From positions 186,001 to 250,000 of the forward strand of contig NZ_JAJFAV010000003.1 of the NCBI RefSeq assembly GCF_020711235.1: DNA of 64,000 bases, read 5' to 3'. Of the stretch, positions 45,397 through 55,335 are shown piece by piece. Made by a program: the position numbers and the translations under genes. Below the pieces are notes generated by a model. That model did not search any database, was not told where the DNA came from, and saw nothing but the letters and a program-made list of their open reading frames with translations. This DNA comes from Hymenobacter sp. 15J16-1T3B (GTDB taxonomy: Bacteria; Bacteroidota; Bacteroidia; Cytophagales; Hymenobacteraceae). How positions within the stretch are numbered: the first letter of the stretch is position 1; every line of letters begins with the position of its first letter.

Positions 45397-46509
45397 CTAA
45401 TCCCGCTCAAACTTCTCGATGTCCGGTTTCGGCGGCAGCTCGCTGATGTAAAACGCGGCAATGGCGCGGGCGAAGCGCGGCAGCAGCTCCCCGTCGTTGG
45501 AAAGCACAATGAAGGTGTAGCCCTGCTGGGGAAAGCGCCACACGTCGCCGAGGCCGGGGCCACCGCTGTGCCCGCCGTAGGTGGTGCCAGCCTCGGTTTC
45601 CACGGCCCAGCCCACCTGCGAGAACCCCGCGTCTGCGGCTCCGATTTTGCCCCGCTGGTAGATGTAAGTGTCGGCGAAGCTGCGCGGAAAAAGCGTGCCG
45701 TTGTCCAGGCCGGCGGCCCAGTTGGCCAGGTCGCTGATGGAAGCGAAGTAGCCGCCCGCGGGGTAGGTATACTGCGGGTAGAGGAATTTGTAGGCCTGCG
45801 GCTTGCCGTTCAGCTCGTAGTAGGTCGTGGCCTTTTGCGCCAGCACGTCGGTGCGCAGGTACTGGCCCTTCACGCGGTATTCCATGTCGAAGGCGCCGTC
45901 GCGCATGCCCAGGGGCGTGGCCACTTCGTCGCGCAGCAGCTGCACGAAGGGCTTCTGGTAAATCCGCTCCAAAATGTAGGAAAGGATCATGAAGTCGGAC
46001 TGCCCGTACTGTTCCTTGGTGCCCGGCTGAAAGAGCAGGGGTGCCTGTTTGACCAAGCGCACAATGCGGCTGGTGGGCAGGTAGACGTTGCTTTCGTAGT
46101 AGTCCGGAATGCCGCTGGAGTGGCTCACCAGGTGCTTGACGCGCACCGGCTGCCACGCCGCGGGCACCGAATCCAGGTACGTACCGATGGGGTCTTCCAG
46201 GTTGATTTTGCCGGCGTGCATGGTTTTGAGCAGCAGCGTCGAAGTCAGCAGCTTGGTGCAGGAGGCAATCTGGAAGTTGGTGTGCTCGGTCACCTTGTTC
46301 TGCCAGTCCAAGTTGGCGAGGCCGTAGGTGGTTTTCTTAAGGATTTGGCCATCTTTCACCACCGCCACGGCCAGGCCCGGAATGCGCAGCTCGCGCATTT
46401 TCTGCTCCACGAAAGCATCCACTCGTTTGCCGGCGGCCCGCTGGGCATTGCGCCCCAGGCCGGGCAAGCTGAGCACGAGGAGGACAAGGAAAACTAAGGC
46501 AACTTTCAT
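45397..46509 (-). CDS. Serine hydrolase (class C beta-lactamase-like)
   Basis: A 370-aa exported hydrolase of the class C beta-lactamase/penicillin-binding-protein-like family. The SxxK motif is in QIASCTKLLTS (residues about 80-90). The second motif appears as YGQSD in EQYGQSDFMIL, instead of YxN. The third looks like GGHSGG rather than KTG. The N-terminus is a signal peptide (MKVALVFLVLLVLSLPGLG). It follows the receptor at 46558 by 48 bp on the same strand, so the two are probably an operon. An esterase or peptidase role is more likely than antibiotic resistance. Confidence 0.85.
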   Translation of the reverse strand: MKVALVFLVLLVLSLPGLGRNAQRAAGKRVDAFVEQKMRELRIPGLAVAVVKDGQILKKTTYGLANLDWQNKVTEHTNFQIASCTKLLTSTLLLKTMHAGKINLEDPIGTYLDSVPAAWQPVRVKHLVSHSSGIPDYYESNVYLPTSRIVRLVKQAPLLFQPGTKEQYGQSDFMILSYILERIYQKPFVQLLRDEVATPLGMRDGAFDMEYRVKGQYLRTDVLAQKATTYYELNGKPQAYKFLYPQYTYPAGGYFASISDLANWAAGLDNGTLFPRSFADTYIYQRGKIGAADAGFSQVGWAVETEAGTTYGGHSGGPGLGDVWRFPQQGYTFIVLSNDGELLPRFARAIAAFYISELPPKPDIEKFERD

Positions 46510-46557: not shown

Positions 46558-49125
46558 CTAGCCGTTGCTGCCGCCGCCCTGCTTCTGGTCGTCGTTCTGG
46601 ATGGTCTTCTTCGGCCGGCTCTGGTTGTCCATCTTGCCGAAGCGGTAGAAGAAGCTCACCCGGATCTGCCGGTTGTAGAAGTAGCTGTTGTTTTCGTAGT
46701 CGAATGCGGGCGACACCAGGTCGTTGCGGAAGGCTAGGCGGGCGTTGAATGGGTTGATGACGGCCACCACCACGTTGGCTTTCTTGTCCCAGAACTCCTT
46801 CTTGGCCCCCAGGCTGTAGATGCGGTAGCCCGAATTGCGGCCCTGCAAGGTTACTTGGCGCGAGTTGGCGAAGGCGAAGAACTGCGCGCTCCAACCTTTC
46901 TCAAACTGCCAGGAGGAGTTCAGGTTCAGGTTGAACATGCCCCCGCTGTTGGTCAGGCCCAGCGCCGGGCTGCTCACCTTGCGCCAGTAGAAGTTCACGT
47001 TGCCGCTCAGGCTCCATTTGTCCGTCAGCTTGGTCGAGCCGAAGGCGGAGAGGCCGTAGTTGGCGTTGCGGGCCAGGTTGCGGTAGGTGGTGTAGAGGAT
47101 GCGCGTGGTGTCGGCGGTGGCCAGCAGCTCGTTGCCGGGCACCAGGCGCGCCACGCTTTCGATGGCGTTGTTGGTCTGCCGCCAATAGCTCGACAGCGTC
47201 ACCGAGCTTTTCTTGATGAAAGTTGTGTAGCTCAGCTCGTAGGCGTCGGTCAGTTCCGCGTTGAGGGTAGGGTTGCCCGACGACACGTTGCGCCGGTCCG
47301 CCGTATTGACGTACGGGTTCAAATACCAGATGCCCGGCCGCTGAATGCGCCGCGAGTAGCTCAGCTTGAGCGTGTGGTCGGGCGTAACTGCCCAGGCCGC
47401 CATCAGGTTGGGCGCCAGGTTCGTGTAGGTGGTGCGCAGCGAGGTGCCGCTGCTCCGGAACTCGCCGTTGATGCGGGTGTGCTCCAGGCGGCTGCCGGCC
47501 TTGAAAGTCCACTTCTTGCCGAGCGCGAAGCCGTAGGACGCGTAGCCGGCGTACACGTTCTGGTCGTAGCCGAACTCGTTGGAGCGCTGCGGCACCGGCC
47601 GGAAGCCGCGCCCGTCCAGCACGGAGTCCGCCTCGATGCGGTAGTCGCTGTCGACGTGGCGCAGGATGGTTTTTACGCCCGTTTCCAGCGTCTGGGTGCT
47701 GTCGAGCGGCTGCACGTAGTCGGCCTGCAGGGTGATTTCGCGGTTGTGGTTGTCGTTGCGGCTCTTCTCGCGGTAGTCGGTCAGCTCGCCGCGCTGCTGG
47801 TCCAGCTGGTAGCGGGTGCGGCCCAGGTTCAGGCTGTAGAGACCGAGCACGCTCAGCTCCTGCTTGGGCTTGGCAAACTGCTTGGTGTAGCCCAGGTTCA
47901 CGTCCACGTTGCCGTTGCCGTCGCGCGTGTCGATGTCGCGGTTGTAGGCATCCAGGAACAGCGGCCGCAGCGCGTCGGCCTCGGTGCGAAACAGCTGGTA
48001 GGAGGTGTACTGCGACCGGTCGTTGAGAAAGCCGCGGTAATTGCCCTGCACGCCCAAGCTCAGCACGTCCTTCGGGGTCAGGTCGTAGTCCAGCCCCAGG
48101 TTGCCCCAAAAGCCCCAGCCCATGTTGGTGAAGCGCCCGTTTTGCAGCAGCAGGCTCTGGGTCGTGTCGGTGAGGTAGTCGCGGCGGCGGGCCGCGCTCT
48201 TGGCGATGTTGTAGAAGGGGTTGGCGCCCAGCCCGGTGTTCAGGCCCAGCTTGCCGCGGCGCTGGTTGAAGTTGCCGTTCACGTAGGCGTTGCGGTTGCT
48301 CACGCCCGCCCCGAGGTTGCCGTTCTTGCCCTCCAGGTTGTTTTTCTTCAAAATGATGTTGACCACCCCGGCCGTGCCTTCCGCGTCGTACTTGGCCGAG
48401 GGCGCGGTAATCACCTCCACCGATTTGATCTGGTCGGCCGGAATCTGCTTGAGGGCCTCGGCCAGGTTGGTGGCCAGCAGGGTGGAGGGCTTGCCGTTCA
48501 CCAGCACCCGGATGTTGCTGGAGCCGCGCAGCTGCAGGTTGCCGTCGAGGTCCACCGTGAGCAGGGGGGCTTTCTGCAGCACGTCGGCCGCGGTACCGCC
48601 CGAGTTGGTCAGGTCCTTGTCGGCGTTGTACACGATGCGGTCCACCTTGCTTTCTACCAGGGCCCGTTCGCCCGTTACTTTCACCTCGCTCAGCTGCGTG
48701 GCCGTGGCGGCCAGCAGCACCGGCGGCAGCTCCAGCACCAGCCGCTCGGCCGTCACCACTACCGGTACCCGCTGCGCCTGGTAGCCCACGAAGCTCACGG
48801 CCAGCGTGTACTCGCCCACCGGCACGTTGCCGAGCACGAAGGCGCCCTTTTCGTCGCAGGCGCCGGCCAGCACGGCCTTTTCGCTGCCCTGGGCCAGCAA
48901 GGCCACCGTGGCAAACTCCACGGGCTGCTTGGTGGCCGCGTTCTGCACCGTGCCCGTGATGCGGCCGGTAGTTTTGGCGGCCGTGCTGCCGGGCGCCGCG
49001 GCGGTTTGGGCCGCGGCCGGGGCGGCCGCTCCCAGCAGCAGGGTCAGCGTCAAGCCAGCCGCGCCGGTGCGCGAAACCCGGGCCAGTTGCGCCCACGGTT
49101 GGGGAAGCAGGGTAACTCTTTTCAT
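46558..49125 (-). CDS. TonB-dependent receptor, beta-barrel family (1)
   Basis: An 855-aa outer-membrane receptor. Signal peptide, carboxypeptidase-regulatory-like beta domain (GRITGTVQNAATKQPVEFAT, SFVGYQAQRVPVVVT), plug (LSEVKVTGERALVESKVDRI, IRVLVNGKPSTLLATNLAEA, VEVITAPSAKYDAEGTAGVV) and a barrel of the OMP_b-brl_3 type ending with QIRVSFFYRFGKM. The substrate is unknown. Two TACGAA-type palindromes lie upstream (49147 and 49305). The serine hydrolase gene follows by 48 bp. The ATG at 49125 begins the signal peptide. Confidence 0.88.
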   Translation of the reverse strand: MKRVTLLPQPWAQLARVSRTGAAGLTLTLLLGAAAPAAAQTAAAPGSTAAKTTGRITGTVQNAATKQPVEFATVALLAQGSEKAVLAGACDEKGAFVLGNVPVGEYTLAVSFVGYQAQRVPVVVTAERLVLELPPVLLAATATQLSEVKVTGERALVESKVDRIVYNADKDLTNSGGTAADVLQKAPLLTVDLDGNLQLRGSSNIRVLVNGKPSTLLATNLAEALKQIPADQIKSVEVITAPSAKYDAEGTAGVVNIILKKNNLEGKNGNLGAGVSNRNAYVNGNFNQRRGKLGLNTGLGANPFYNIAKSAARRRDYLTDTTQSLLLQNGRFTNMGWGFWGNLGLDYDLTPKDVLSLGVQGNYRGFLNDRSQYTSYQLFRTEADALRPLFLDAYNRDIDTRDGNGNVDVNLGYTKQFAKPKQELSVLGLYSLNLGRTRYQLDQQRGELTDYREKSRNDNHNREITLQADYVQPLDSTQTLETGVKTILRHVDSDYRIEADSVLDGRGFRPVPQRSNEFGYDQNVYAGYASYGFALGKKWTFKAGSRLEHTRINGEFRSSGTSLRTTYTNLAPNLMAAWAVTPDHTLKLSYSRRIQRPGIWYLNPYVNTADRRNVSSGNPTLNAELTDAYELSYTTFIKKSSVTLSSYWRQTNNAIESVARLVPGNELLATADTTRILYTTYRNLARNANYGLSAFGSTKLTDKWSLSGNVNFYWRKVSSPALGLTNSGGMFNLNLNSSWQFEKGWSAQFFAFANSRQVTLQGRNSGYRIYSLGAKKEFWDKKANVVVAVINPFNARLAFRNDLVSPAFDYENNSYFYNRQIRVSFFYRFGKMDNQSRPKKTIQNDDQKQGGGSNG

Positions 49126-49146: not shown

Positions 49147-49162
49147 TACGAAGATTTTCGTA
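49147..49162. promoter_or_regulatory. Palindromic operator candidate Op1 (TACGAA-N4-TTCGTA)
   Basis: TACGAA-GATT-TTCGTA, perfect 6-bp arms with a 4-nt spacer, 22 bp upstream of receptor 1. Same architecture as Op2-Op4. Confidence 0.7.
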
Positions 49163-49555
49163 TAATTTGGTCGGCGGCGGGCCAATGGTCGGTGACCAGG
49201 TGGGTTGGAGGTTGGCAAGTGAGGGAAGGGGCGGAGCCTTAACGGCGGCTCAACGCGCAATTCAGGCCAAAGACCGGGAAGTATTTTCGCCGTTGCATAT
49301 AAACGACGAATAATTTCGTATTATGGGTAAAGCGTTGATTTATAGCTGTAAAAAATGAGTAGTCGGGTGCGAAAGCGCATCACAAGAGCGCATTGCCGCC
49401 GGCCTCCAAGGAAACGCCCGGCCCCCGGCCTCAACCGCCAAGCGCAACCACAGCGTCCCGTTGTTCGGGCCGCGGTGGCTGCGCTGCGGGCACTCAGTCC
49501 TGAAAAAACGACGGCCTTAAGCTGCTTGACGTCGTGCGTGTTGGCGGCAGGGCGG
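49163..49555. promoter_or_regulatory. Regulatory gap upstream of receptor 1
   Basis: About 390 bp with no credible gene. It contains Op2 at 49305-49320 (GACGAA-TAAT-TTCGTA) followed on the minus strand by a degenerate -7-like GTCGTTTA. A long antisense reading frame that runs through here has no promoter or domain support. Confidence 0.5.
49305..49320. promoter_or_regulatory. Palindromic operator candidate Op2
   Basis: GACGAA-TAAT-TTCGTA: 5 of 6 arm positions are symmetrical. It sits just upstream of a degenerate -7 box on the minus strand, the same relative position as Op4 has to its promoter. Confidence 0.6.
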
Positions 49556-52027
49556 CTAGTTGCCGCCGGCGCGGCGCTTTTCGTCCTCGGCGCCGCCGCC
49601 GCGGCGCTTGGTCGGGGCCACCTTGTCGTTGCCGAAGCGGTAGTTCAACGACAGCGTCACCACCCGCGACTCGTAGCGCTGGTAGAAGCGCTCCACGTAG
49701 TTGTCGAAGAGCACCGTTGCCCGGGTTTTGTTGGTGAAGAACACGTCGGTGGCGTTCAGCTTCACGGTGGCCTTGTTGTGCCACACCGATTTCTGTACCC
49801 CAAACGACACCTGCCCCTGCGCCCGGCTCACGAAGTACGCGTAGCGGTTTTTGGAGTCGTAGCTCGCGTTCAGGTCAGCTTTCCAGTCGTGGCCGAGCAC
49901 GAAGGTGCTGTTGGTGTTCAGGTTGAAGGCCGGGCGGCCGGCGTTGAGGCGGGTGCCGGCCAGGTTGCCCTGGAACTGGTTGTAGTAGAGCACCACGTTG
50001 TTGTACACGCTCCACCACTTGGCCAGCTCCACCGGCGCGGTCAGCGTCAGGGCGTAGTTGTACTGGCGGTCCAGGTTCTGCGTGGTCGATACCACCACCC
50101 GGCCACCCTCCGGCGCCGGCTGCACCGTGCCCACGATGGGCCGGGAAGTGACGGCGTAGCTCACCCCAAGGCTGTACTTCTGGGCGAAAGTGTGGGTCAG
50201 CTCCAGGTTGTAGCTGGTCTGCGGGCGCAGGTCGGGGTTGCCAGCCCCGTAGGTTGTCGCGTCGATGTAGCTCTTAAACGGGTTCAGCTGCCCGTAGGAC
50301 GGCCGGTCGATGCGGCGGCTGAGCGAGAGGCTCGTCTCGTTTTTGTCGGAGAACGTGTGCTTCACCGCCGCCGACGGAAACAGCTGGAAGTAGTGGCGGT
50401 TGAAGCGCCCCGAGTCGGCTTCGGGCTTGCCGATGGCGTTGGTTTGTTCCCCGCGCAGGCCCACTTGCAGCGTCCACTGCGGCAGGTTCTGGCTCACGCT
50501 CACGTAGCCGGCCAGGATGTTCTCGTCGTAGCGGAAGCGGTTGGAGCGGCGCGGGTCGCGCACCAGCTCGTCGATAGCACCTGCGCGCACCGGCACTTTG
50601 AAGAGCAGGTCGTTATCGGCCAGTACCCAGCTGACCTTGCTGCCCGCTTCCAGCCGGCTGGTTTTGCTCAGCGGCCGGGTGTAGTCGGCCTTCACCGACT
50701 GAATGGTCAGGTCGTTGCGCTGGTCGCTGGTGAGGCGGTCCAGGGTTTCGGCCGGGTAGGTAAAGCGCGTGTCGAGCTGCTGGTAGCGGCTGGCCTCGTA
50801 GCGGGCGTAGTCGGCGTCGGCCGTCAGCTCGTGCGTGCCCAGCGAGTCTTTAAAGGTGTGGCGGAAGTTGGCGTTCAGCGAGTAGTTCGGCAGGTCACCG
50901 TTGCGCAGGTTGGTCGATTGGTAGCGGCCCGTGGTGCTCCCGTCGGGGGCGTACAGCTCCGAGTTGTTCGTGCCGCGGCTGTCCGTTTGCAGCGCCAGCC
51001 CGTTGGCCACCACGCCCAGCACGGTACGTTCGGTCAGGTAATAGTCCAGGCCCGCTTTCCAGGAGTGGGAGCGGCCGTGGGAGCGGCCTTCGTTGTCCTG
51101 GTACGACTTGCCCACCAGCGTTTTCACGTTATCCGGGTAATCGAAAAAGTCCCGGTTGATGGTCAGCGCGTTCCAGTTGCGGCGGTCGGCGAAGGTGTAG
51201 GTGCCAAACACGTTCAGCTTCTTGCGCCGGTGGTTCAGCGAGAGGCCCGCGGTGTATTTGCCGTAGCGCCCGTAGCCGTAGCTGGTGTTCAACGAGCCGT
51301 TGGTGCCGAGCTTCTGGTCTTTCTTGAGGTTGATGGCAATGATGCCGGCCCCGCCTTGCGCGTCGTACTTGGCCGGCGGGTTGGTGATGAGCTCGATGTT
51401 TTTGACTTGGTCAGCGGGCAAGGCGCGCAGGTAGTCGGCCAGCTCCGAGCCCGTCATGGGCTGGCGCTTGCCGTCGATGAGCACCAGCAGGCCCTGCCGC
51501 CCGCGCAAGGCCAGGTTGTCGTTGTTGTCCACCGTCACGCCCGGCGAGCGGCGCAGCACGTCCAGCGAGGTGTTGCCGGCCGACAGCGGCGAGTTTTCCA
51601 CGTTCACCACCGTGCGGTCGGCCAGGCGCTCGAACTGCGGCCGGGTGCCCGTCACTTTCACCTCCTTGAGCTGGGTGGCGGCGCTGGCAACCAAGGTCAG
51701 GGCGGGCACCGCCACCTTCGCGCTGCCCACCTCGAAGGGCCGCGACCATTGCCGGGCAAAGCCTACCTGCGAGGCCGACACCACGTACTGCCCCGCCGGC
51801 GCCGCCTCAAACGCGAACTGCCCCTTGTCGTCGCTGAATTCGGTTTTGACCACGGTCGAGTCCTGGGCGCGGTGCAGCGTCACGGTGGCGTAGTCGATGA
51901 CGGCGCCGGTCGAGCTGCGCACCGCGCCGCTCACCGTGGCCGCGGATTGGGCGTAGCTCACCTGGGCCAGACCCAGGCCGGAGAGGAGCAGCAAGGCGGC
52001 ACGCGGGGAGGAGTAGGAAGTTTTCAT
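49556..52027 (-). CDS. TonB-dependent receptor, beta-barrel family (2)
   Basis: An 823-aa outer-membrane receptor with a signal peptide (ending QVSYAQ), regulatory-like beta domain (VSGAVRSSTGAVIDYATVTL, DSTVVKTEFSDDKGQFAFEA), plug (LKEVKVTGTRPQFERLADRT, QGLLVLIDGKRQPMTGSELA, YDAQGGAGIIAINLKK) and barrel ending in SLNYRFGNDKVAPTKRRG. The Arg/Lys-rich tail is periplasmic. It is a close paralog of the receptor at 52843, with two near-identical tracts in the N-terminal half. It lies downstream of marR, and its promoter overlaps Op3 and Op4. Confidence 0.9.
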   Translation of the reverse strand: MKTSYSSPRAALLLLSGLGLAQVSYAQSAATVSGAVRSSTGAVIDYATVTLHRAQDSTVVKTEFSDDKGQFAFEAAPAGQYVVSASQVGFARQWSRPFEVGSAKVAVPALTLVASAATQLKEVKVTGTRPQFERLADRTVVNVENSPLSAGNTSLDVLRRSPGVTVDNNDNLALRGRQGLLVLIDGKRQPMTGSELADYLRALPADQVKNIELITNPPAKYDAQGGAGIIAINLKKDQKLGTNGSLNTSYGYGRYGKYTAGLSLNHRRKKLNVFGTYTFADRRNWNALTINRDFFDYPDNVKTLVGKSYQDNEGRSHGRSHSWKAGLDYYLTERTVLGVVANGLALQTDSRGTNNSELYAPDGSTTGRYQSTNLRNGDLPNYSLNANFRHTFKDSLGTHELTADADYARYEASRYQQLDTRFTYPAETLDRLTSDQRNDLTIQSVKADYTRPLSKTSRLEAGSKVSWVLADNDLLFKVPVRAGAIDELVRDPRRSNRFRYDENILAGYVSVSQNLPQWTLQVGLRGEQTNAIGKPEADSGRFNRHYFQLFPSAAVKHTFSDKNETSLSLSRRIDRPSYGQLNPFKSYIDATTYGAGNPDLRPQTSYNLELTHTFAQKYSLGVSYAVTSRPIVGTVQPAPEGGRVVVSTTQNLDRQYNYALTLTAPVELAKWWSVYNNVVLYYNQFQGNLAGTRLNAGRPAFNLNTNSTFVLGHDWKADLNASYDSKNRYAYFVSRAQGQVSFGVQKSVWHNKATVKLNATDVFFTNKTRATVLFDNYVERFYQRYESRVVTLSLNYRFGNDKVAPTKRRGGGAEDEKRRAGGN

Positions 52028-52108: not shown

Positions 52109-52126
52109 CTACGAAGTAATTCGTAG
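52109..52126. promoter_or_regulatory. Palindromic operator Op3 at predicted start site
   Basis: CTACGAA-GTAA-TTCGTAG, perfect 7-bp arms, located immediately downstream of the -7 box at 52127-52134 on the minus strand, over the predicted transcription start. Confidence 0.8.
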
Positions 52127-52134
52127 CAAACATA
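52127..52134 (-). promoter_or_regulatory. -7 box (TATGTTTG) of receptor 2
   Basis: Exact TAnnTTTG on the minus strand. A TTTTG -33 element lies at 52153-52157, 18 nt upstream. Op4 fills the interval and Op3 begins right after the box. Confidence 0.8.
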
Positions 52135-52149
52135 CGAATGTGTTCGTAT
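52132..52149. promoter_or_regulatory. Palindromic operator Op4 between -33 and -7
   Basis: ATACGAA-TGTG-TTCGTAT, perfect 7-bp arms, 4-nt spacer. Its centre is 23 bp from that of Op3. A protein bound here would block the promoter. Confidence 0.8.
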
Positions 52150-52209
52150 TTTCAAAACAGGTAGTGGCGGGCGGCTGCTTATTTAAGTCAGAAAGCCCAG
52201 TCCAAAGCG

Positions 52210-52641
52210 TTAGGGCGCCGGGGCGCAGTTCAGGGCAATGCGGTCGAGCAGGGGGCGCATCAGGGTCAGTTCCTCCTCCGAAATGCCGGCCAGGGCCTTG
52301 GCCCGGTTCTGCAGGATGATGGGATGCACCGCGTCGAGGATGCGGTGGCCTTGCTCGGTGACGCGCAACTGGGTGCGGCGCCCGTCGTGGGGCAGCGGAA
52401 TGGCCGACAGCAACCCGCGACGGGTGAGCAGGGCCAGAATCCGGGCCACCGACGCTTGGTCCTTGAACACGCGCTCGGCTATTTCGTGCTGGGTCAGGTC
52501 GTCGTGCTCCAGCAGCACCCGCAGCACCAGCCACTGGTCGATGGTGATGTCGAGGCCGGCGCGGTCGATGGTGGCCTGGGCCATGCGCCGGTAGCTGCGG
52601 ATGGCTTTGTCGAGGGCGTAAAAGACGATGGAAGAGAGCAT
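52210..52641 (-). CDS. MarR-family transcriptional regulator
   Basis: A 143-aa winged-helix regulator. Dimerisation helices at each end and a DNA-binding core (TIDQWLVLRVLLEHDDLTQH, AERVFKDQASVARILALLTR, RRGLLSAIPLPHDGRRTQLR) are typical of MarR. The family usually represses divergent or downstream genes and is released by a small ligand. The downstream receptor gene (ATG at 52027) carries palindromes Op3 and Op4 over its promoter. A separate palindrome, CTATGA-TATG-TCATAG (52666-52681), lies upstream of marR and may mediate autoregulation. The ATG at 52641 is preferred over a TTG seven codons earlier. Confidence 0.9.
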   Translation of the reverse strand: MLSSIVFYALDKAIRSYRRMAQATIDRAGLDITIDQWLVLRVLLEHDDLTQHEIAERVFKDQASVARILALLTRRGLLSAIPLPHDGRRTQLRVTEQGHRILDAVHPIILQNRAKALAGISEEELTLMRPLLDRIALNCAPAP

Positions 52642-52665: not shown

Positions 52666-52681
52666 CTATGATATGTCATAG
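52666..52681. promoter_or_regulatory. Palindrome upstream of marR
   Basis: CTATGA-TATG-TCATAG, perfect 6-bp arms with a 4-nt spacer, 25 nt upstream of the marR ATG. It lies just ahead of a TCTTTG -7-like sequence on the minus strand. The half-site is related to the CTACGA of Op3. Confidence 0.65.
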
Positions 52682-52842: not shown

Positions 52843-55335
52843 TTAGTCGGCCCGGCGTTTTTCGTCCTCGGCCCCGCCCGCGCGCCGCTTGGTGGGGGCC
52901 ACCTTGTCGTTGCCAAAGCGGTAGGCGAAGCTCAGCGTGACCACGCGCGAGTCGCCGCGCTGGTAGAAGTGCTCCTGGTAGTTGTCGTAGGTAGAGCGGG
53001 CGCGGGTGGTGGAGGTATAAAGCAGGTCGGCGGCGCTGAGCTTGAGCGTGCCCTTCCGGTCCCAAAGGGTTTTCTGCACGCCCACGGCCACCTGCCCGCG
53101 GGGGCGCAGGTTGAAAAAGCCGTACACCTCGCGCGACTGGTAGCGGCCGTTGAGCTCCACCGACCAGCCCGGGCCAAAGCCGTAGCTGGTGTTGCTGCTC
53201 ACGTTGAAGGCCGTTTGACCCTTGTTTAAGGAGGTGCCGGCCACCGAGCCGGTAAAGCTGCGGTAAAACAGCACGGCGTTGTTGTAGATGGTCAGGCCCT
53301 TCACCGGCTCCAGCGGCACGGTCAGGTTCAGGGCGTAGTAGTCCTGGCGGCCCAGGTTCTGCACCGTGGCCACCACGATGCGGCTCTCGGCCGACTCGGG
53401 CTGCACGGTGTTGACGATGGGGTTGGCGGTGCGGCTGTAGCTCAGGCCCAGGCTGTACTTCTGCTTGTAGGTATGGGTAAGCTCCAGGTTGTAGGAGGTC
53501 TGCGGGCGCAGCTTGGTGTTGCCTTCCTGGTAGGTGGTGGCATCGGCGTAGCTGCGGAAGGGGTTGAGCTGGTTGTAGGAGGGCCGGTCGATGCGGCGGC
53601 CGAGCGAGAGGCTGGTTTCGTGTTGCTCCGAGAAGCTGTGCTTCACGCCGGCCGAGGGAAAGAGCTGAAAGTAGCGCCGGGCGAAGGTCGGCGCGACGCC
53701 GGGCTGCACCACTTCCTGCCGGCCCCGGGCCTCGGTGTGCTCCCCGCGCAGGCCGGCTTGCAGGCTCCAGTGCGGCAGCGTCTGGCTCAGGCTGGCGTAG
53801 CCGGCCAGGATGCGCTCCTGGTAGTGGAAGCGGTTCGAGCGGGTTTCGTCGTAGCTGGTCACCCCGTTCTGGGCCTGCCAGAAGTCCACGTCGTTGTCGG
53901 AGTCGACCCAGCTGGCCTTGGCGCCGGTTTCGGCCCGCAGCGCCTTGCTGAGCGGGTGCACGTAATCGGCCTTGCCCGAGGTGATGGTTAGCGCGCCGCG
54001 CTGGTCGCCGTCGAGCTGGTAGGGCGCGCGGCTGATGACGTCGTAGGTGGTGTAGAGGCCCTGCCGGCGCTGCCCATCGTAGCGGGCCACGTCGAAGTCG
54101 GCGCTCAGCTCGCGCGGACCGGCCGCCGGGTTCGGCACGGTGTGGCGCAGGTTCAGGTTCAGCGCGTAGTTGGCCGGCGTAGCCGTGAGCCAGTTGCGGG
54201 TGTTGAACACGCTGTCGGGCGCGGCCACGGCCGGGCGGCTGAAGGTGGAGCGGTTCGTGCCGTCGACCTCAAAGCGGTTGTACACCCCGCTGCCCACCGC
54301 CCCGACCACCGTATGGGGCGTCAGGTTGTAGTCGAAACCGGCTTTCCAGGTGTGCGAGCTGCCGATGGAGTGCTGGTCGTTGTCGAGGTCGGAGCGGCTG
54401 AACAGGGGCCGGCTCACGTCGCCGGGCCGGAAAAACTCCCGGTTGATGTCCAGCTTGTTGAACCCCTCGCGGCGGGCGTAGCTGTAGGAACCGAACAGGT
54501 TGAGCTTCTGCTGGCGGTGGTTCAGCGAGAGGCCCGCGGTGTATTTGCCGTAGCGCCCCTGCCCATAGCTGGCATTGACCGAACCGTTGGTGCCGAGCTT
54601 CTGGTCTTTCTTGAGGTTGATGGCAATGATGCCGGCCCCGCCCTGCGCGTCGTACTTGGCCGGCGGGTTGGTGATGAGCTCGATGTTTTTGACTTGGTCA
54701 GCGGGCAAGGCGCGCAGGTAGTCGGCCAGCTCCGAGCCCGTCATGGGCTGGCGCTTGCCGTCGATGAGCACCAGCAGGCCCTGCCGCCCGCGCAAGGCCA
54801 GGTTGTCGTTGTTGTCCACTGTCACGCCCGGCGCCCGGCTGAGTACGTCCAGCGAGGTGTTGCCGGCCGCCAGCGTGGAGCCCTCGACGTTGACGATGGT
54901 GCGGTCGGCCTCGCGCTCGTACAAGGGCCGCGTGCCGGTCACTTTCACCTCCTTGAGCTGGGTGGCGGCGCTGGTGGGCAGGGCCAGGGCGGGCAGGCTG
55001 ACGGCCGCGCCACTCACGGCAAAGGGCTTGGACCACTGGCGCACGTAGCCCAGCTGCGAGGCCGATACCAGATACTGCCCGGCGGCCGGCGCTCCAAAAG
55101 TAAACTGCCCCTTGTCGTCGCTGAATTCGGTTTTGACCACGGTCGAGTCCTGGGCGCGGTGCAGCGTCACGGTGGCGTAGTCGATGGCGGCGCCGGCCGA
55201 GCTGCGCACGGACCCGCTCACCGCGGCCGGCGACTGGGCCTGCGCGGCGGAGCCCAGCAGCAGCGCGGGCAACAGGAAAGCCCAGGCGGCGCGGTGGCGG
55301 CGGGCTGCGGAGCGGGAGTAGAAAGCTTGTTCCAT
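52843..55335 (-). CDS. TonB-dependent receptor, beta-barrel family (3)
   Basis: An 830-aa outer-membrane receptor, paralog of receptor 2: signal peptide (AFLLPALLLGSAAQAQ), regulatory-like beta domain (VSGSVRSSAGAAIDYATVTL), plug (LKEVKVTGTRPLYEREADRT, QGLLVLIDGKRQPMTGSELA, YDAQGGAGIIAINLKK) and barrel ending SFAYRFGNDKVAPTKRRAGG. The first 1.5 kb aligns collinearly with receptor 2, including a 250-nt tract with two mismatches, while the barrel has diverged. It is first in the minus-strand series receptor 3, marR, receptor 2, receptor 1. The substrate is unknown. Confidence 0.9.
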   Translation of the reverse strand: MEQAFYSRSAARRHRAAWAFLLPALLLGSAAQAQSPAAVSGSVRSSAGAAIDYATVTLHRAQDSTVVKTEFSDDKGQFTFGAPAAGQYLVSASQLGYVRQWSKPFAVSGAAVSLPALALPTSAATQLKEVKVTGTRPLYEREADRTIVNVEGSTLAAGNTSLDVLSRAPGVTVDNNDNLALRGRQGLLVLIDGKRQPMTGSELADYLRALPADQVKNIELITNPPAKYDAQGGAGIIAINLKKDQKLGTNGSVNASYGQGRYGKYTAGLSLNHRQQKLNLFGSYSYARREGFNKLDINREFFRPGDVSRPLFSRSDLDNDQHSIGSSHTWKAGFDYNLTPHTVVGAVGSGVYNRFEVDGTNRSTFSRPAVAAPDSVFNTRNWLTATPANYALNLNLRHTVPNPAAGPRELSADFDVARYDGQRRQGLYTTYDVISRAPYQLDGDQRGALTITSGKADYVHPLSKALRAETGAKASWVDSDNDVDFWQAQNGVTSYDETRSNRFHYQERILAGYASLSQTLPHWSLQAGLRGEHTEARGRQEVVQPGVAPTFARRYFQLFPSAGVKHSFSEQHETSLSLGRRIDRPSYNQLNPFRSYADATTYQEGNTKLRPQTSYNLELTHTYKQKYSLGLSYSRTANPIVNTVQPESAESRIVVATVQNLGRQDYYALNLTVPLEPVKGLTIYNNAVLFYRSFTGSVAGTSLNKGQTAFNVSSNTSYGFGPGWSVELNGRYQSREVYGFFNLRPRGQVAVGVQKTLWDRKGTLKLSAADLLYTSTTRARSTYDNYQEHFYQRGDSRVVTLSFAYRFGNDKVAPTKRRAGGAEDEKRRAD

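Follow-up and report, generated by a model that had tools for sequence, protein, structure and literature searches.

A gene for an outer-membrane receptor of Hymenobacter sp. 15J16-1T3B, here called receptor 2, carries two tandem palindromes in its promoter and lies next to a gene for a MarR regulator, which raises the question of which protein occupies the palindromes. A first-pass annotation of the window, that is, of the whole stretch of 64,000 nucleotides that was analysed, had proposed that this MarR binds both palindromes, designated Op3 and Op4, and represses the receptor. As described below, the repression logic of that proposal stood and the palindromes proved to be conserved like operators, while MarR as the protein did not stand, since the motif tracks a BlaI orthologue encoded on another contig. 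The features discussed are collected in Table 1.

Two palindromes overlap the predicted promoter of receptor 2

Exact TACGAA-N4-TTCGTA cores were found in the window at 52110-52125 and 52133-52148, spaced 23 bp apart, and the extra outer base pairs of Op3 and Op4 were present as first annotated. On the minus strand, TTTTG (52157-52153), a spacer of 18 bp and TATGTTTG (52134-52127) enclose Op4. Judged by the Bacteroidota promoter consensus, which was used to call the -33 and -7 boxes, this predicted promoter is a good fit to the form, and Op3 covers the start expected from it. The layout originally described, with Op4 between the two boxes, Op3 on the predicted start and marR as the next gene upstream (same strand, gap 183 bp), was therefore recovered. 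All 40 marR-receptor loci of the BlaI-operator type carried two operators, 23 bp apart in 29 and 24 bp apart in 11. In 32 of the 40, the TA that ends the upstream operator was part of a TANNTTTG box with no more than one mismatch, against about 6% expected for any one position once the TA is given, and TTG lay 18 bp upstream of the -7 TA in 28. The palindromes are conserved in the manner of operators, a term used here for elements recognised by their sequence, and the overlap of Op3 and Op4 with the promoter predicts repression of receptor 2.

Receptor 1 of the window is also preceded by the motif, and its one-mismatch copy stood at the equivalent place in four relatives; the PF00144 gene downstream probably shares an operon with this receptor. 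Another receptor of the PF14905 family, the third in the window, is encoded upstream of marR (52843-55335), and near it neither a TACGAA site with up to two mismatches nor an exact MarR-type site was found.

Table 1. Genes, promoter elements and motif sites in the window (first eleven rows) and elsewhere in the genome
Feature	Position	Strand	Remarks
PF00144 beta-lactamase-fold serine hydrolase	45397..46509	minus	on the strand of receptor 1, 48 bp downstream of it
Receptor 1, PF14905 family	46558..49125	minus	predicted regulon member
Exact TACGAA-N4-TTCGTA	49147..49162	none	22 bp upstream of receptor 1 start
One-mismatch operator copy	49305..49320	none	upstream of receptor 1
Receptor 2	49556..52027	minus	CarboxypepD_reg, Plug, OMP_b-brl_3 (PF14905 4e-108)
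Op3, CTACGAA-N4-TTCGTAG	52109..52126	none	over predicted receptor 2 transcription start
-7 box TATGTTTG of receptor 2	52127..52134	minus	TA common to box and Op4 end
Op4, ATACGAA-N4-TTCGTAT	52132..52149	none	fills -33/-7 spacer of receptor 2
-33 box TTTTG of receptor 2	52153..52157	minus	18 bp to -7 box
marR	52210..52641	minus	PF12802 5e-13; next gene upstream of receptor 2
MarR-type palindrome CTATGA-N4-TCATAG	52666..52681	none	marR promoter; sole genome copy
blaI	G000:C37, L005:6521-6943		PF03965 7e-24 over 113 positions; three motif copies in promoter
Three motif copies	another contig (C37, locus L005)		directly upstream of blaI, then overlapping M56 gene
Two exact sites	L002		before PF00144 hydrolase
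One exact and one imperfect site	L004		before another PF00144 hydrolase
Two sites	L001		before S41 peptidase
One site	L003		about 500 bp upstream of short CarboxypepD_reg gene, then OMP_b-brl_3 gene

The motif marks a small regulon

Allowing up to two mismatches, the window contained 4 sites, compared to a mean of 0.58 in shuffled sequences, of which 0 of 100 reached 4. The genome (6.33 Mb, 42 contigs) contained 10 exact copies of TACGAA-N4-TTCGTA and 0 of the reversed pattern; with at most one mismatch there were 18 sites against 1 for the reversed control. Since the exact and the relaxed counts both stand so far above their controls, the motif marks a small regulon, and the genome scan that the first-pass annotation had suggested gave something other than random scatter. 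Gene calling was performed around nine further motif places of the genome (Table 1). The single one-mismatch sites at C11:763341, C38:114808, C38:163418 and C41:18892 were excluded from the regulon; the one at C38:163418 stands at a ribosomal-protein gene.

The PF00144 proteins that were checked all had SxxK (4 of 4), and in 3 of the 4 HSG stood where class C beta-lactamases have KTG. Because HSG replaces KTG in 3 of 4, beta-lactam resistance is not inferred for these proteins.

The site before the short CarboxypepD_reg gene is a single exact motif (L003:5868-6384) and was found at the same place in L086, L088, L091, L094, L097, L101, L105, L114 and L118. Its context is kept, with GCAACC or GCATCC before and GTC after (8 of 10 aligned), and where measured it lies about 500-650 bp upstream of the next recognised gene. 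Between site and gene, nearer the gene, there is a second conserved promoter-like block with AAGTACCT repeats. A site of this type may drive an unannotated leader or small RNA; an Rfam search of L003 and L005 returned tRNAs only.

The motif tracks one BlaI orthologue

In a phmmer search, the BlaI protein matched solved BlaI/MecI chains (1sd4, 1p6r, 1okr and others). The overlapping gene encodes an M56 partner (PF05569 8e-29) with the HEXXH motif HELAH, which was recovered in L177-L182. The penicillin-binding domain that serves as a beta-lactam sensor, PF00905, was not detected on the M56 protein at E values up to 0.1. Since the M56 protein appears without such a domain, beta-lactam sensing is not claimed, and the regulon need not concern antibiotics.

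Exact motif copies were present within 200 bp upstream of blaI in all 30 orthologue loci examined, while the stretch downstream of blaI had the motif, with at most one mismatch, in 0 of 30. Among 58 relatives (orthologue threshold of at least 120 bits), 38 had both BlaI and the exact motif, 1 had BlaI alone, 2 had the motif alone and 17 had neither. In 200 family genomes drawn evenly from a larger group, the corresponding numbers were 175, 8, 3 and 14 (Fisher p 1.6e-13, with kinship ignored, and the counts overstate independence). The BlaI loci of 7 of the 8 BlaI-only family genomes and of the order-level exception (G048) all carried at least two one-mismatch copies upstream. The three BlaI-less genomes with the motif had one or two sites each, and the reversed control gave 2, 1 and 0 there.

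Within the window's genus, all eight genomes that were searched have the BlaI orthologue, which also occurs in other families of the order. Its relatives in Hymenobacter edaphi (99%), H. jeollabukensis, H. gummosus, Hymenobacter sp. CRA2, Solirubrum puertoriconensis and H. busanensis occur in genomes that all have the motif (6 of 6), and a Pedobacter BlaI at 49% identity was without it. One genome (G006) holds three blaI copies, each with the motif; two of these, with operators of their own, belong to operons of the form operator-blaI-M56-receptor, and G024 probably also holds such an operon. At the two other BlaI paralogues of the window's genome there was no TACGAA site with up to two mismatches within about 1.5 kb on each side, so the motif link is limited to one BlaI orthologue group. 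One of the two carries another palindrome, ATAACTA-N6-TAGTTAT, close to its start (L010:1427-1460), so that BlaI paralogues seem to have separate operators. The canonical TACA/TGTA operator core was not seen in the present motif, which shares only the outer TAC and GTA with it.

The marR promoter carries a different palindrome

An ATGA-N4-TCAT palindrome stood upstream of marR in 49 of the 62 loci, among them that of the window. The genome of the window has a single copy of CTATGA-N4-TCATAG, at marR, and likewise a single copy of ATGAYAYRTCAT there; in G011 the latter occurs twice, at marR and at the receptor. With a single copy in one genome and two in the other, a genome-wide MarR regulon was dropped. 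The marR promoter of the window has no TACGAA site, so its palindrome differs from that of the target, and marR most likely regulates its own promoter from this different, predicted operator. A MarR orthologue was present in 62 of the 200 family genomes and the exact motif in 178, and all 62 MarR genomes also have BlaI. MarR as the owner of the motif was rejected on the counts given here, among them the frequency of the motif where no MarR orthologue was found and the other conserved palindrome in the marR promoter. In six of the 62 loci (L158, L171, L176, L146, L147 and L175) a TACGAA-type site with at most one mismatch also stood in the marR promoter, beside MarR palindromes in 5 of the 6, and BlaI may control marR itself there.

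A probable exchange of operators at the marR-receptor locus

All 62 marR loci were read, and 7 had no such receptor directly downstream, leaving 55 pairs. In the gap between marR and the receptor, 40 loci had a tandem TACGAA pair and 9 had a MarR palindrome; none of the 55 had both, and 6 had neither. Three of these last six have a gap of 11 bp and, in front of marR, a sequence close to the MarR palindrome; the other three have both operator types before marR and none at the receptor. One genome without a MarR orthologue (G028) kept receptor 2 (61%) together with tandem operators 23 bp apart, adjoining tsaE and ald as in the genus. In G011, marR (82%) and the receptor (60%) are adjacent, and a MarR palindrome stands in front of the receptor; this locus has no TACGAA site with up to three mismatches, and the TACGAA sites of G011 stand at blaI on another contig.

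In a MarR tree, the nine MarR-operated rows fall in two places. One origin is compatible with this tree; the exchange may therefore have happened only once, and the nine loci are not independent. In the same tree, the marR clade of the window's genus encloses nine loci from a different genus of the family, a hint that the locus was transferred from one genus to another.

A BlaI/M56 model and its alternatives

Overall, these results indicate that the protein on the tandem palindromes is very probably a BlaI/MecI-type repressor encoded elsewhere, and not MarR. The best reading of the sequences is that a BlaI/M56 system represses a small set of genes, which encode outer-membrane receptors, beta-lactamase-fold hydrolases and an S41 peptidase, and that in one group of relatives this receptor locus has gone over to MarR control. 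The sequences themselves give the places of the operators, their conservation, the members of the regulon and the co-occurrence with BlaI; from these we infer binding, repression, proteolytic release and a signal, which would be linked as follows. A pair of adjacent BlaI dimers on the receptor 2 promoter, one within the -33/-7 spacer and the other over the start, would block transcription. The M56 protease would sense an envelope signal and inactivate BlaI as BlaR1 does. This would switch on, together, blaI-M56 and the genes for receptors 1 and 2, for the three beta-lactamase-fold hydrolases and for the S41 peptidase.

MarR proteins often regulate their neighbours, and marR is both the next gene upstream and adjacent to a receptor in 55 of the 62 marR loci, as would suit repression of receptor 2 by MarR from Op3 and Op4. 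This reading is nonetheless extremely improbable, since the motif is frequent where a MarR orthologue is missing, accompanies blaI in every one of the 30 loci, and is replaced by the MarR palindrome at the receptor in G011 and eight other genomes, while the marR promoter itself has another palindrome. We also considered a third, unlinked regulator that binds the motif and governs blaI, receptors and hydrolases alike, for which the opening is that we infer the binding of BlaI to it. Such a protein would have to match the presence and absence of BlaI across 200 genomes, and every blaI copy, paralogous ones too, would have to retain two or three of its sites. BlaI relatives, moreover, regulate their own operons through paired inverted repeats (PMC8457756), and we regard the third regulator as very unlikely.

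Both proteins might act on receptor 2, with BlaI at the receptor promoter and MarR through read-through or through binding at the marR promoter. MarR could affect the receptor by read-through, given one strand and a 183-bp gap, and the loci with both operator types before marR and neither at the receptor promoter (three genomes), like those with an 11-bp gap (three others), fit such an arrangement; receptor 2 of the window, however, has a complete promoter of its own. Joint control is conceivable but on balance doubtful here, and it does not conflict with BlaI as the protein on Op3 and Op4.

With BlaI as that protein, the nearest regulator gene need not be the right one. BlaI/M56 pairs occur in many Bacteroidota, and this BlaI is found in 183 of the 200 family genomes. 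Their names suggest beta-lactam resistance, whereas operator and regulon point to outer-membrane receptors and surface hydrolases, and a regulon that can be read from sequence gives a concrete route to the signal. The locus gains interest because its operator type changes from that of one repressor to that of another, unrelated one, and its two natural states, one BlaI-operated and one MarR-operated, could be used to study how a promoter changes its regulator. We think it somewhat probable that the receptor locus was rewired between the two repressors, that BlaI/M56 is a general control of outer-membrane receptors and envelope hydrolases in the family, and that its signal is other than a beta-lactam bound to a penicillin-binding sensor.

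Comparison with known systems

None of the papers listed in our literature searches dealt with a BlaI operator or regulon in Bacteroidota, or with MarR operators at receptors in this phylum. The neighbouring MarR fits the self-regulating MarR repressors, with ATGA-N4-TCAT in its own promoter, a palindrome that is not the one of Op3 and Op4. The CopY/CopR copper repressors (PMC7253601) belong to a related family with a 16-base operator, two of them in tandem, and differ in their KACANNTGTA core, their metal-sensing Cys-X-Cys tail and their copper export genes. BlaI_0696 and BlaI_1845 of Clostridium thermocellum (PMC8457756) likewise have a small regulon, self-regulation and two inverted-repeat pairs at target promoters; there, the GTCTAT inverted repeats are 5 nt apart, an outer membrane is lacking and the targets are mainly the blaI and blaR1 operons.

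A further parallel is provided by BlaI/MecI-BlaR1/MecR1 of staphylococci and bacilli, in which a PF03965 repressor is also encoded beside an M56 protease, and operators lie both in the promoter of the repressor and at distant targets. BlaR1 signalling (PMC9834060) serves as the model for the proposed release of BlaI by M56. The operator here is TACGAA-N4-TTCGTA instead of the TACA/TGTA core cited for Gram-positive BlaI/MecI (PMC7253601). Unlike those systems, the present M56 protein has no detected penicillin-binding sensor domain, and the predicted targets are outer-membrane receptors, PF00144 hydrolases and peptidases.
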